A stretch of 51,094 nt of DNA from Ruminococcus sp. (GTDB taxonomy: Bacteria > Bacillota > Clostridia > Oscillospirales > Acutalibacteraceae): the NCBI GenBank assembly GCA_017384945.1, contig JAFNSO010000091.1:1-51094 (forward strand), read 5' to 3'. Every line of letters begins with the position of its first letter. Within the stretch, counting starts at the first letter, position 1. Positions 47,340 to 51,094 of the stretch are shown in pieces. The notes below the pieces were generated by a model. The model searched no databases. It worked only from the letters and a program-made list of their open reading frames with translations, and was not told where the DNA came from. A program made the position numbers and the translations under genes.

Positions 47340-49202
47340 ATGCTGATGAAGGACATCCTCAACGTTTTTCAGTTTGACTGGGCGTGCGCTCCCTCGATGA
47401 CCGAGCTGCGTCCCGACGTATTCAAAAACAAGTGCGTCCTGATTTCGGGTCACAGGCTTGCCCTTGCGCTCGCCTGCACCATCCTCACCCTGAACGACAA
47501 GCTCGACCTCGGGGCAAAGGTTTTTCTCTGTTCGACCGACGAGTCCTTTGAAAGCACGCTCCCCGCGGGACTTAGCGAACGCGGCGACCTGATTTTCACC
47601 CCGACTCAAAGAATACTTGACATAAAGCAAAAAATCGACATAGCGATACACACCGCCCTCTGCGGCGAAAAAGCCGACGGCTCGCCCGCTCAGTTTGCCG
47701 CCGAGACCTCGGCGATCAAGCTTCTGCTCTCACTCGACGAAAGCAAGAGCCTTGAGCGGCTGATACTTCTGTCCGACAGCCGCGTCTACGGCAGGGCTCA
47801 GAACAAATACCGAGCCTTCGCCGAAAACGAAATGGGCGCGGTCGGCGTAAAGGACTACGGCGCCCAGCTCATCAGGATGATTGAGAGTATGTTCGCTGAC
47901 GAAAGCCGCGAAAACCATCTGACTCTCCGACTCGGCTCGATAATCGCGCCCTCTCTTCCCCTTTACAACGGAGTCGAGGACGTTTTTGACGCAGTCGCGA
48001 AGGGCAAAGAGATCACTCTCCAAAGCACAGACAGAAAAATCTCCTTCATATATATGACCGACGTTTTTGAGTCGATCGTTTTCTCGCTAAAAAACAAGCT
48101 TAGCGGAGTCTACAACGTCGGCGACGACAGCCTCAACATCTCCACGGGCTCCCTTGCCGCAAAGCTCCACGACATTTTCAGCGCTGCCAAAATCTCAATG
48201 ACCTCAGACGAGGGCTTTGAGGGCAATTCGCTGAGCGCCGACAAGCTAAGAGACAAGGGCTTTAAGACGATAATCGACCTCGACACCGCCCTCGAGCTCG
48301 CCGTTATGAGCCGCTCGGACAGCGACGTGTCGGACTTCCGTTTCCCTCACGAGCACAAGGGCAGACTCAGCTCGATCCAGGAAATCCTGATGGCGTATCT
48401 GCTCGAGGTTGACCGTATCTGCCGCAAGCACAACATCCGCTGGTACCTCGGCGGCGGAACGCTCCTCGGCGCAGCGCGTCACAAGGGCTTCATCCCGTGG
48501 GACGACGACGTTGATATAATGATGCTGCGCGAGGACTACGACAAATTCCTCGAAATCGCGCCCGACGAGCTCCCCGAGGGTATGAAGCTCTACGACCCCA
48601 AAAAGGACAAAACCTACAACTACTGCTACGCGAAGCTCAGAATCAGCGGAACCGTTTTCGCGACCGACTTCTCAAAAAACCACAAGGGAATGGACAACGG
48701 CTTTGCGTTCGACATATTCTGTCACGACAAAACCGCGAACTCCAAGCTCGGTCAGAAAATCCACAGTAAGCTGACTCTGTTCTGGCTCGCGTGCGTATTC
48801 AACAAGTGGAACCACCGCAAGGCGCAGAACGACAGTAAGCTCCAGTCGGTTATCACGAACTTCTGCAAGAACATATTCCCCCTGCGCTTCTCAACAAGAA
48901 TGCTTCTCTTCACGCTCGAAATGTTCAAGCACAAGAAGAACGCGAAATACCTCTACGACGGAATGGGCAAAAGCGTCCACAAGGGCGGCTTCGACAAAAC
49001 CTTCCTCGACAACGAGATCCGCGTCGAGTTCAACGGCTACCCAATGCCCGTCCCCGCAAAGTACAAGGAGTACCTCACCAACCACTACGGCGACTTTATG
49101 GAGCTGGCCCCCCTGAGCACACGCCTGATGGGTCACGAAATAACCCTCAGCGACCTAGCCGAATACGCCGACTTCCAAATCTCCAACAAAACTTTATATT
49201 GA
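47340..49202 (+). CDS. LicD family phosphotransferase fused to a degenerate SDR domain
   Basis: 620 residues. Residues 1 to about 330 follow an extended-SDR pattern (VLISGHRLALALA at the N-terminus, LLSDSRVYGR, SFIYMTDVFESI, GVYNVGDDSLN) but lack both the Gly-rich motif and the catalytic Lys. From about 345 a LicD domain begins: SIQEILMAYLLEVDRICRKH, YLGGGTLLGAARHKG, then WDDDVDIMM (about 386-394), the metal-binding acidic motif of LicD nucleotidyltransferase-fold enzymes. LicD proteins add phosphocholine or related groups to surface polymers. GGAGGTGA lies 5-6 nt before the ATG. Last gene of the cluster; its TGA overlaps the next promoter. Confidence 0.88.
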   Translation: MLMKDILNVFQFDWACAPSMTELRPDVFKNKCVLISGHRLALALACTILTLNDKLDLGAKVFLCSTDESFESTLPAGLSERGDLIFTPTQRILDIKQKIDIAIHTALCGEKADGSPAQFAAETSAIKLLLSLDESKSLERLILLSDSRVYGRAQNKYRAFAENEMGAVGVKDYGAQLIRMIESMFADESRENHLTLRLGSIIAPSLPLYNGVEDVFDAVAKGKEITLQSTDRKISFIYMTDVFESIVFSLKNKLSGVYNVGDDSLNISTGSLAAKLHDIFSAAKISMTSDEGFEGNSLSADKLRDKGFKTIIDLDTALELAVMSRSDSDVSDFRFPHEHKGRLSSIQEILMAYLLEVDRICRKHNIRWYLGGGTLLGAARHKGFIPWDDDVDIMMLREDYDKFLEIAPDELPEGMKLYDPKKDKTYNYCYAKLRISGTVFATDFSKNHKGMDNGFAFDIFCHDKTANSKLGQKIHSKLTLFWLACVFNKWNHRKAQNDSKLQSVITNFCKNIFPLRFSTRMLLFTLEMFKHKKNAKYLYDGMGKSVHKGGFDKTFLDNEIRVEFNGYPMPVPAKYKEYLTNHYGDFMELAPLSTRLMGHEITLSDLAEYADFQISNKTLY

Positions 49203-49227
49203 CAACTCAGCCGTTTTTTGATATAAT
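49199..49227 (+). promoter_or_regulatory. Consensus sigma-A promoter of the tRNA-Leu array
   Basis: TTGACA (49199-49204), 17-bp spacer, TATAAT (49222-49227), both boxes perfect. The -35 box overlaps the TGA stop of the LicD gene. Transcription would begin near 49234, before the two decayed tRNA units and about 245 bp before the intact tRNA. Confidence 0.9.
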
Positions 49228-49242
49228 AATATAGTTCAATAA

Positions 49243-49477
49243 GCAGGTATAGCGGAATTGACAGACGCGCACGGTTCAGGTCACGCCACGTCTGTGTAAA
49301 ATCAAAAGTTAATATATTATAAGTTTTGGCAGGGTATTTACCCTGTTGAGATAAATTTGCGGATATGGCGGAATTGGCAGACGCGCATGGTTCAGGTCAC
49401 GCCACTTCTGTGTAAAATTCAAAAAGTAAATATTTTATAGATTTTGGCGGGGTATTTACCCTGTTGAGATACATTTG
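49243..49477 (+). repeat. Two tandem units, each a tRNA-Leu 5' half plus a 77-nt tail
   Basis: Unit 1 (49243-49358) and unit 2 (49359-49477). The first ~40 nt of each match the intact tRNA-Leu: acceptor 5' strand, D-arm and anticodon loop GGTTCAGGTC. The 3' half is replaced by a tail that is conserved between the units: CACGCCAC(G/T)TCTGTGTAAAAT, an A/T stretch, then the hairpin GGGTA-TT-TACCC, then TTGAGATA(A/C)ATTTGC. In unit 1, ACAGACG pairs with CGTCTGT to make an alternative stem. Confidence 0.8.
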
Positions 49478-49564
49478 CAGGTATGGCGGAACTGGCAGAC
49501 GCGTACGGTTCAGGTCCGTATGGAAATTGCTTCCATGCAGGTTCAAGTCCTGTTACCTGCACCA
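49478..49564 (+). tRNA. tRNA-Leu (anticodon CAG)
   Basis: Class II tRNA. Acceptor GCAGGTA/TACCTGC, discriminator A, encoded CCA at 49562-49564, anticodon stem TACGG/CCGTA with loop TTCAGGT (CAG), a variable arm (TGGAAATTGCTTCCA) and the T-arm GGTTCAAGTCC. Complete and intact. Confidence 0.95.
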
Positions 49565-49565
49565 T

Positions 49566-49615
49566 AATCCCACTCTAATTCTGATACAATGGTATCGGGT
49601 AGAGTGGGATTTTTC
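49566..49615 (+). terminator. Terminator of the tRNA-Leu transcript
   Basis: ATCCCACTCTA and TAGAGTGGGAT arms with an inner GATAC/GTATC stem, then TTTTTC. It starts 2 nt after the CCA. Confidence 0.9.
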
Positions 49616-49671
49616 TTTTGCACCCCATACTTCCTAAAAATGCCTGTTTTCAAGGGCTTTTTAGGCTACAA

Positions 49672-49839
49672 ACACACGATAGTCTTGTCGGAATAGAACT
49701 CAAAAGCCTCGGTGGAACGTTCTCCATCGAGGCTTTTTTGCGTTTTCAGGGCTAAATTGTCAAAAGCTATCGTGTGTTGAGTCGGGTAATCGTGTGTCGT
49801 GTGGGGGCTATCGTGTGTATTGTCAGGGTTATCGTGTGT
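49672..49839. repeat. Phased ATCGTGTGT repeats beside tRNA-Leu
   Basis: Direct copies of ATCGTGTGT start at 49769, 49789, 49810 and 49831 (spacings 20, 21, 21). An inverted copy, ACACACGAT, lies at 49672-49680. Spacing of two helical turns puts all sites on one face of the DNA. There is no gene between 49565 and 49933; the stretch holds these repeats and three hairpins. Confidence 0.7.
49702..49739 (+). terminator. Hairpin terminator in the tRNA-mcrBC gap
   Basis: AAAAGCCTCG and CGAGGCTTTT with an inner TGGA/TCCA stem, then TTTTTT. It has A-runs before and T-runs after, so it can work in both directions. It does not follow any recognisable gene. Confidence 0.7.
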
Positions 49840-49864
49840 CGTGTTGAATTACCCCTCCAATTAA

Positions 49865-49933: not shown

Positions 49934-50137
49934 CTATGGAAAAAACTCTGCGACTATAGCGTTGAGCTGTGCAGCAATTTCAGAGAAATCCCGGTTCAAA
50001 TCAAGCGTTTTTACGCTGATCTTATTACCGCTCATCTGATAGCTGTTGTCAGGCTGAATTGCTTCATCGGTTGCTGCATACAGAAGCATTCCGGATACCT
50101 TATGCGGTTCTTCTCCAAATTCTGTATCTTTATTTTT
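49934..50137 (-). pseudogene. mcrC: True 3' end of mcrC, shifted out of frame
   Basis: In the frame shifted by one base from the upstream part, this stretch reads GEEPHKVSGMLLYA, then QMSGNKISVKTLDLNRDF and ends EFFP before TAG at 49934-49936. This is the C-terminal pattern expected of McrC. The break lies in a T5 run (A5 in the gene's sense) at 50133-50137; one more A restores YVKNKDTEFGEE. Confidence 0.8.
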
Positions 50138-50985
50138 ACGTAGGTAAAGATTTGGTACAGATTGTTTGAATGGAGTGTGTGAACATCATATTGCGTCTGC
50201 GTAGTGTGAGTATAATATTTCGCATCGATTATAAGCACATCTTTGCCTCTGGTCAGCATGATGTCGCTCTGCATAACTGGGAGCATTGTGCCAATGCCAT
50301 CATCCAGAGCCCACGGAATCTGTGACGCTGCGGCGCGTACTTGCGGGCACTCTTTTGCATAGTATTCGAGAATAAATTTCTCATACAGCCGGTTCATCCG
50401 CTGCTCATCGACAAAGGATGCCAGCTTATAATCTCCGGTGTCCGTCGTCAGAAGCATCCCTTCCAGAACGAGCTGACATAAGCTAATGAGCATACGATAG
50501 GTATTATTGTTCCTCTGAAATCGAATGGCCGACCACCGAATTGTGGTTGGATCGATTGTGTCAACATTCGAGAAAAACAACATTTCTTTTTTTAAATCGC
50601 TTTTGTACTCCTGATTTACTCTCGTGTGTCGGAGCAGAAGCATAACGGTCGTTTTCAGTATCTGATTTAGGAGATTGTTTTCTGAAAGCTCGTCATACTC
50701 ACAGGTCAGTACTCGCTTTCTGTCAAGGCGGTTCTGAATAGTACCCGGCATATCGATTTTGCCACGGACTACAGCAACATCTTCTTTCCGATTCAAATAC
50801 TCCCGGTAAAGCCCTTGCTTTAACTGTCTGCCTATGCCCTTCGCCAAAATCGCAGCGAAGAGATTATGCATATTCTCGAACTCTTCGGTAGCAACATCCT
50901 CATAACCACCTTGATTCAGCGTTGTGAACGCATACGAAAGCATATAGTATATGTTCTTTATGAAGATGCTTTTGTCTTTAATCAT
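50032..50985 (-). CDS. mcrC: McrBC restriction system endonuclease subunit McrC (frameshifted near the end)
   Basis: 317 codons from ATG 50985, chosen because it overlaps the mcrB stop by 4 nt (ATGA) and McrC proteins typically begin with a NIYYMLSYA motif close to the start. The central McrBC-type PD-(D/E)XK nuclease core is visible: SDIMLTRGKDVLIIDAKYY (D and D-x-K), then NLYQIFTYVK. McrC cuts DNA that McrB recognises as modified. The last ~30 codons are out of frame: the conserved C-terminus lies in another frame after an A5 run at 50133-50137. The product may be inactive unless this is a sequencing error or phase variation. Base and codon use look more A/T-rich than in the neighbours, suggesting transfer. 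Confidence 0.85.
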   Translation of the reverse strand: MIKDKSIFIKNIYYMLSYAFTTLNQGGYEDVATEEFENMHNLFAAILAKGIGRQLKQGLYREYLNRKEDVAVVRGKIDMPGTIQNRLDRKRVLTCEYDELSENNLLNQILKTTVMLLLRHTRVNQEYKSDLKKEMLFFSNVDTIDPTTIRWSAIRFQRNNNTYRMLISLCQLVLEGMLLTTDTGDYKLASFVDEQRMNRLYEKFILEYYAKECPQVRAAASQIPWALDDGIGTMLPVMQSDIMLTRGKDVLIIDAKYYTHTTQTQYDVHTLHSNNLYQIFTYVKIKIQNLEKNRIRYPECFCMQQPMKQFSLTTAIR

Positions 50986-51094
50986 TGAAACACACCTTGC
51001 AGGATGTTCTCCCAACGCTGGAGCTTATTTGCGTCGTCGAACCAGTATTCACTAAGCATTGGAAGAATATCATAATCAACGATGGAGTGCAACC
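50982..51094 (-). CDS. mcrB: McrB-like GTPase, C-terminal end only (runs off the window)
   Basis: Frame open from the window edge to TGA at 50982-50984, overlapping the mcrC start. It reads HSIVDYDILPMLSEYWFDD and continues to ILQGVFQ, as expected for the C-terminus of the McrB AAA+ GTPase. Only 37 codons are visible; the identity rests on the motif and on its position directly before mcrC. Confidence 0.7.
   Translation of the reverse strand, partial: LHSIVDYDILPMLSEYWFDDANKLQRWENILQGVFQ

Follow-up and report, generated by a model that had tools for sequence, protein, structure and literature searches.

Tandem tRNA-Leu 5' halves upstream of a tRNA-Leu gene in Ruminococcus sp., best read as modules of a recurrent leader array

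Why should two truncated copies of a tRNA-Leu stand between a promoter and the intact tRNA-Leu gene? The question is raised by a stretch of Ruminococcus sp. DNA (GenBank assembly GCA_017384945.1, contig JAFNSO010000091.1, positions 1 to 51,094, forward strand; order Oscillospirales), which at its full length of 51,094 nucleotides (nt) is called the window here. A sequence-only reading of positions 49,243 to 49,564 had offered relics of tandem duplication, RNase P decoys and a regulatory RNA leader as possible answers. Our best reading, drawn from sequence comparison, is that the two units would be modules of a recurrent leader array that precedes tRNA-Leu(CAG/UAG) genes in one order of the Clostridia, and we take the array to be more probably a leader system not described before than mere debris.

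Two truncated tRNA-Leu units ahead of the intact gene

The locus begins with a promoter; a tandem pair of units, 116 and 118 nt long, comes next, and an intact tRNA-Leu(CAG) closes it. Its features are listed below.

49199..49227, + strand: sigma-70-type promoter, TTGACA-17-TATAAT with an extended -10, 12/12 consensus matches
49243-49358, + strand: unit 1, whole (half 49243-49282, tail 49283-49358)
49243..49282, + strand: unit 1 half, tRNA-Leu from G1 to just beyond the anticodon loop, 36/40 identical to the tRNA
49283..49358, + strand: unit 1 tail (ACGCCACGTCTGTGTAAAAT...); 49283-49360 is 81-99% identical in six other genomes of the genus
49323..49352, + strand: unit 1 hairpin HP2, 13 bp, no U-run, from folding
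49359-49476, + strand: unit 2, whole (half 49359-49398, tail 49399-49476)
49359..49398, + strand: unit 2 half, 5' half of tRNA-Leu, 35/40 identical to the tRNA
49399..49476, + strand: unit 2 tail, 68/76 (89.5%) identical to the unit 1 tail
49441..49470, + strand: unit 2 hairpin HP2, 13 bp with G.U pairs, from folding
49477..49564, + strand: intact tRNA-Leu(CAG), from ARAGORN and RF00005 at 49.5 bits
49566..49611, + strand: inverted repeat (12 bp, 22-nt loop) with a T-rich run behind it, where the tRNA transcript probably terminates, from repeat analysis and sequence

This layout bears out what the sequence-only reading had described, namely two units that each join a tRNA-Leu 5' half of about 40 nt to a shared tail and that lie between a perfect promoter and a functional tRNA. 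The promoter, in which TG precedes the -10 box, was the one site found by a scan whose looser threshold gives 1.2 expected sites in shuffled sequence, and it would place the +1 about 8 nt ahead of unit 1. The repetition is also seen as direct repeats of 95 nt at 88% and 89 nt at 80% identity, with spacings of 118 and 116. In the window's own genome (2.08 Mb) the sole further match to the units at E <= 0.001 was the 5' half of the tRNA itself, and the units had no Rfam match, either in the window at the curated gathering thresholds or in eight loci, the window's included, up to E 10. The inverted repeat at 49566..49611 was not called by the short-loop terminator scan.

The GGGTA-TT-TACCC hairpin noticed earlier is kept in both copies, where it forms the tip of the 13-bp stem with G.U pairs (49323-49352 and 49441-49470). 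Whole-unit folds only moderately beat shuffled sequences (z -2.11 for 49243-49360 and z -2.05 for 49361-49476), and in a separate folding test the half and tail of unit 1 folded better than the half with shuffled tails (z -2.7). The pairing of tail and D-arm that had been proposed for ACAGACG/CGTCTGT holds in part: it could form in unit 1, is disrupted in unit 2 (GCAGACG/CTTCTGT) and does not appear in the minimum free energy structure of unit 1.

Recurrent modules upstream of tRNA-Leu in related genomes

Searches of related genomes, 59 of them with the window region as query and 60 with a related region, showed that the stretch from promoter to tRNA-Leu carries recurrent modules, here called A, B and C, whose order and number vary. 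In module A a tRNA-Leu cut short after the anticodon loop, and so reduced to its 5' half, is followed by a tail with hairpins, and both units of the window, each a tRNA-Leu 5' half with a hairpin-bearing tail before tRNA-Leu, are of this kind. The array variants in close relatives were P-A-A-tRNA, P-C-A, P-B-C-A, P-A-A-A, P-B-A and P-B-HP2.

The units had been expected to be plain duplication debris if the tail were unconserved. The 78-nt tail query (49283-49360) was found in 7 of 161 genomes of the genus, the window's own included, the other six carrying it at 81-99% identity with tRNA-Leu(CAG) downstream in 6/6, and A-type modules recur across the order upstream of tRNA-Leu(CAG/UAG), often in company with a B; together these favour a leader system over debris. 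One of the six (G781) holds only the last 67 nt of the tail, behind a B and with the half missing, and another (G696) holds three tandem tail copies (99, 99 and 86%; best 98.7%) and no LicD gene found in the 1.5 kb upstream flank. The upstream neighbour in the window, 47340-49202, bears a LicD domain (PF04991). In G032 the tail is 97.4% identical over 78 nt, the adjacent LicD gene 78.1% over 890 nt and the 60-nt 3' flank 43%. A tail more alike than its neighbours, and placed elsewhere in another genome, points to strong constraint or to recent transfer or conversion, and since tails are quite different in other sub-lineages of the genus, module transfer or conversion would be the likelier. The comparisons strongly suggest that arrays are reshuffled at the repeated 40-nt halves and move between species; the mark of recombination between these halves is plain in the arrays, and the array as a whole is probably modular, recombining and spread horizontally between species.

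Across the fetched loci, 66 tRNA-Leu 5' halves lie outside called tRNAs and 53 of them have a tRNA-Leu at most 700 nt downstream, an association that is partly built in because similarity to tRNA-Leu or B was what brought these loci into the set; of the remainder, 11 have no tRNA before the locus end, one lies at 738 nt (L130) and one is stand-alone (L174). The list of 66 takes in true tRNAs cut by a contig end (L030, and one in each of L148 and L150) as well as pseudo-tRNAs that are nearly complete (L130, L141, L197); after removal of duplicates 61 halves were kept, and 53 of these were treated as A modules. The anticodon of the half is that of the downstream tRNA in most loci but not in every one, L079 for example having TAG before a CAG gene. 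Divergence among 52 A halves and 130 real tRNAs was 0.273 vs 0.272 at acceptor positions 3-7, 0.038 vs 0.026 at 8-26 and 0.273 vs 0.254 at 27-31. A spliced or split tRNA, made of the 5' half of A and the 3' half of the tRNA, was rejected since the acceptor strands often differ.

Tails in several families begin AGGTnnYGYCACCTCnGTGAA, and GYCACCTCnGTG is shared by tails of other families. A terminator candidate was found in 14 of 32 non-redundant A tails; 11 of these candidates were matched by at most 10% of shuffles, and seven end 9-12 nt before B or the tRNA. The script overlooked the L174 terminator, whose loop is longer than allowed. In several lineages (L021, L038, L019, L022 and L123) the tail reads as the reverse complement of the half in degenerate form. 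Over 28 tails, with relatedness not corrected, the half-tail duplex energy was -16.5 kcal/mol vs -13.6 for shuffled tails (p 0.0008) and vs -15.4 for the halves of other lineages (p 0.03), and in 23/32 units the half and its own tail pair more than the half does with shuffled tails. Near-complete pseudo-tRNA-Leu copies in which the T-arm has turned terminator-like were found in L197 and, by eye, in L141 and L130; the T-arm terminator sequence in L141 and L197 is GGTTCAAGTCCGTGAACC-CTTTTT, and these copies sit upstream of a real tRNA-Leu (in L141 the locus ends first).

C elements are inserts of about 100-130 nt that in most of the loci named below split the tRNA-Leu half in the D-loop (by eye), and possibly represent a tRNA-targeting mobile element. 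Their sequence is structured-looking by eye (..AAATAAGGAG ... CGACTATATTT..). They were seen in L004 (at 1392), L007, L008 (two in tandem), L012, L023, L028, L031 and L034, and further in L041, L090 (at 3599 and 3805), L103, L169, L194 and L201; in L194, C-like elements follow the tRNA-Leu and are flanked by fragments of tRNA 3' ends.

The surroundings of the window's array hold some further features. Just behind the tRNA-Leu, at 49766-49848, a 21-nt repeat built around ATCGTGTGT stands four times in tandem, and 12 nt of it recur in inverted form at 49671-49682. An McrBC-family protein (PF10117, E 3e-39) is encoded at 50032-51015 on the - strand, not far from the tRNA-Leu on its 3' side.

The B element and its association with tRNA-Leu

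B follows the pattern GYGG-ATTA-AGC...GCT-CCRC-CT-CGGN...NCCG-TGTAAAAAT and forms a bulged hairpin and an H-type pseudoknot, in which the P2 loop pairs with the stretch after an A-rich linker. In 28 sequences of the genus P1a, P1b and P2 were paired in 99, 100 and 96%. Covariation was assessed on 108 order-wide matches (105 distinct) in an alignment fitted to the model, where two-sided changes were seen in 8 of 11 pairs, the count of double-change cells was 151 vs 37.8 in shuffles, and the covariation score was 0.368 vs 0.112 shuffled, with slid structures at <=0.088. Of 134 structure-positive elements, 104 had a pseudoknot score of at least 5, where swapping of the tails gave 36.7 (maximum 46); the 104 elements have 75 distinct arms, and the mean pseudoknot score over 158 unfiltered elements was 5.10 vs 3.89. 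These figures supersede an early count of 65% paired cells from a MAFFT alignment in which the loops were out of register. G.U pairs are found on the tRNA-sense strand, which fits an RNA, and the covariation makes it well supported that B is a real structured RNA. Neither B nor A had an Rfam match up to E 10 (8 loci).

We ran a model of B (R1) over the whole genomes of 60 members of the genus, 245 of the order and 398 drawn from the phylum. B was found in 32/60 genomes of the genus (16/30 best assemblies), and 29 of 30 fetched B loci had a same-strand tRNA-Leu(CAG) behind, the other (L284) ending with the match at the contig end. Over the order, 21/245 genomes gave 24 matches, 20 with tRNA-Leu behind, two cut by the contig end (L064, L082) and two weak and coding-like by eye (L081, L083). 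Of the 398 genomes drawn from the phylum, some of which belong to the order itself, one had a weak match (L288, E 0.007). This match, at 1501-1562 and outside the order, reads CCTCG...ACGTGTAAAAAT, and ARAGORN called no tRNA there.

The link to tRNA-Leu held under other forms of search, B occurring almost exclusively upstream of tRNA-Leu(CAG/UAG), and Ruminococcus bromii and R. flavefaciens are among its hosts. A pattern scan of 84,980 species genomes gave at least 119 loci; among the matches listed, 131 pattern matches comprised 80 that precede tRNA-Leu(CAG), 19 that precede tRNA-Leu(TAG) and none that precedes another tRNA, with 10 at most 600 nt from the locus end and 22 without a tRNA, which are most likely chance because none of them matches R1 at E 0.001. 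On 93 tRNA-Leu loci R1 gave 108 matches, 107 of them followed by tRNA-Leu (80 CAG, 27 TAG) and one (L106) overlapping the tRNA start. On 46 other loci it gave 34 matches: 20 followed by tRNA-Leu, 11 cut by the locus end, two in coding sequence (L081, L083) and one in a stand-alone unit (L174). The gap from the last B (end of GTGTAAA) to the tRNA was 12-26 nt in 79/92 loci. None of 15 tRNA-Leu(GAG) genes in the fetched loci had a B within 150 nt. At its other end B starts, in several loci, about 8 nt past a -10 box, near the expected transcription start (by eye, e.g. L005, L027, L055 and L059).

The stand-alone unit (L174, 5380-5760, - strand) comprises B and a half-tRNA with a promoter-like TTGACA, a strong terminator and no tRNA directly behind, and is a candidate small RNA gene. 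A phage origin of B was rejected: in 51 viral contigs with a looser pattern, tRNA-Leu lay behind in L249 only. In that contig the tRNA-Leu(CAG) is 79 nt behind B, and it is probably a prophage beside tRNA-Leu.

Cis control of tRNA-Leu and competing explanations

If the units belong to a leader array, the array RNA would be transcribed together with the tRNA and would act in cis on the amount of tRNA-Leu made or matured. We propose such a cis action as the main function tentatively, at somewhat under an even chance. The placement between promoter and tRNA, the conserved RNA structure, the restriction to CAG/UAG, the terminator-like hairpins of some lineages and the T-arm-terminated copies all fit it. 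In lineages with a terminator at the end of the A tail the array could serve as an attenuator; the window, with a hairpin that lacks a U-run and with B missing, would be a weakened or non-terminating version, and its units may be a reduced form. A more specific scheme, which is unlikely, is that truncated tRNA-Leu copies, joined to the pseudoknot RNA and to a hairpin or terminator that can switch, respond to the state of the tRNA-Leu(CAG/UAG) pool, or to a protein binding these tRNAs, and in this way set transcription or maturation of their own tRNA. As to the regulatory leader suggested at the outset, conservation of the tail favours a leader, and the anatomy of the array is shown; its regulatory action in cis is inferred.

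A number of observations weigh against a cis leader. In the window, the GC-rich hairpin and U-run that would make an attenuator between promoter and gene are present as the hairpin alone, HP2 having no U-run, and a scan of 49100-49700 found no terminator on the + strand; the complementarity of half and tail, by which a mutually exclusive antiterminator was assessed, exceeds shuffles on average over 28 tails (p 0.0008) but not in the window (p 0.54). The R1 search found no B element in the window's own genome, that is, no P1 with bulge, P2, pseudoknot and GTGTAAAAAT linker before tRNA-Leu, the best match being unit 2 itself (49359-49435, 16.8 bits, E 0.9), which is weak and lacks the P2-pseudoknot part. 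B is also missing at E 0.01 from 28/60 genomes of the genus (14/30 best assemblies) and is therefore dispensable. Among the relatives, 18/32 A tails, the window's among them, have no terminator candidate, and 2/14 candidates (L079, L204) fall outside the tail. HP1, the small hairpin that follows the half, shows no covariation (25/43 vs 28.5 when partners were swapped) and was rejected as a covarying hairpin. A halves vary by position as real tRNA halves do, which plain copying would give as well. Finally, a pairing of B with the tRNA anticodon loop (N in C-N-CC-TCGG with position 38) was unsupported, six CTCC elements facing U38 and two CACC elements facing A38.

The A modules could instead be functionless leftovers of tRNA-Leu tandem duplication, kept tRNA-like by conversion or unequal crossing-over with the real tRNA, with only B, absent here, being functional. 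The per-position divergence equal to that of real tRNA-Leu halves, the variable copy number and the scarcity of U-run terminators in the A tails of the genus (L008 and a mid-tail candidate in L043 are the exceptions) agree with this. Yet one tail type is 97-99% identical between species in which the neighbour gene is 78% identical or absent, which conversion or transfer could also explain; tails of other families share GYCACCTCnGTG, and in 7/32 the distance from a terminator-like hairpin to B or the tRNA is 9-12 nt; and tail-half complementarity exceeds shuffles (p 0.0008, 28 tails). We regard leftovers as a possible explanation, if a somewhat unlikely one. Rather improbable, in our judgement, is that the units are released as small RNA, a structured 5' external spacer that would act in trans as a sponge or decoy once RNase P frees the tRNA. 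The stand-alone unit of L174 with its own promoter-like TTGACA and strong terminator, the high degree of structure in B, and the precedent of RtT, an RNA freed from tRNA operon transcripts according to PMC4986893, are in keeping with it, but such a unit is just 1 in 142 model matches and the module otherwise stays with tRNA-Leu, which suggests a cis role.

The array could also be what remains of small mobile cassettes that insert into the anticodon loop of tRNA-Leu and supply it with a fresh 5' half, much as integrative elements do for tRNA 3' ends, since the duplicated part spans G1 to the anticodon loop, near-identical modules occur in different neighbourhoods and C elements split halves in the D-loop. 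ORFs (open reading frames) were listed for five loci (L097, L102, L130, L174, L204), and two of these arrays hold one between A and the tRNA: in L102 (5341-5850) a YcxB-like ORF (PF14317, E 9e-9), in L204 (~669-938) an 89-aa stretch without Pfam match. Integron-like gene cassettes were rejected, such an ORF being present in 2/5 loci and inspection of the listed ORFs by eye having revealed no integrase, though no systematic integrase search was made. The window's units, at 116-118 nt, are too short to hold a gene; where the acceptor strands of A and tRNA differ (e.g. L025, L029, L138), simple insertion would have broken the tRNA; and the covariation of B points to RNA function. We give mobile cassettes a small chance. 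Smaller still, and next to negligible, is that of the RNase P decoys suggested originally. RNase P recognises the T-arm and the 3' CCA, and the units have neither these nor a 3' acceptor strand; tRNA-like 5' ends and nothing more speak for decoys, acceptor pairing in some tails of the genus not being general.

Comparison with known systems places a cis leader of this kind at some distance from each. Integrative elements that target tRNA genes also duplicate part of the tRNA up to a sharp junction, but they duplicate the 3' part, whereas here it is the 5' part, in the window in gene-free units of 116-118 nt. External transcribed spacers such as 3'ETS-leuZ are stable RNAs from the spacer of a tRNA-Leu transcript that act as sponges; the spacer origin is shared, but 3'ETS-leuZ lies on the 3' side and has neither repeats nor a pseudoknot. 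T-box leaders are structured Gram-positive leaders tied to tRNA, with terminator attenuation as there would be in some lineages here; they precede amino-acid genes and bind tRNA, whereas here the leader contains a truncated tRNA and precedes a tRNA gene, and a T-box reading was rejected, since Rfam gave none in the 8 loci searched up to E 10. RtT RNA (rtT, E. coli tyrT operon) derives from tandem repeats with a 3' fragment of tRNA-Tyr, unlike the repeats here, which carry the 5' half upstream of the tRNA, concern tRNA-Leu(CAG/UAG) in another phylum and are accompanied by a pseudoknot RNA. Among RNAs that come from tRNA transcripts RtT is the closest precedent: according to PMC4986893 and PMC2965389, processing of the tRNAs sets it free from their operon transcripts, and it has a link to amino-acid limitation or the stringent response. 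Rfam gave no RtT match (window at the gathering threshold; 8 loci up to E 10).

As far as we searched in Rfam and the open-licence literature, structured leader RNAs dedicated to tRNA genes appear to be undescribed in bacteria. If the more specific scheme above is true, a tRNA would be autoregulated by its own mimic, a new class of control of tRNA genes, and if B regulates, it would show how a cell tunes one isoacceptor group. If the array is not regulatory, it would still be a clear promoter-proximal tRNA array that recombines and is probably spreading between species.
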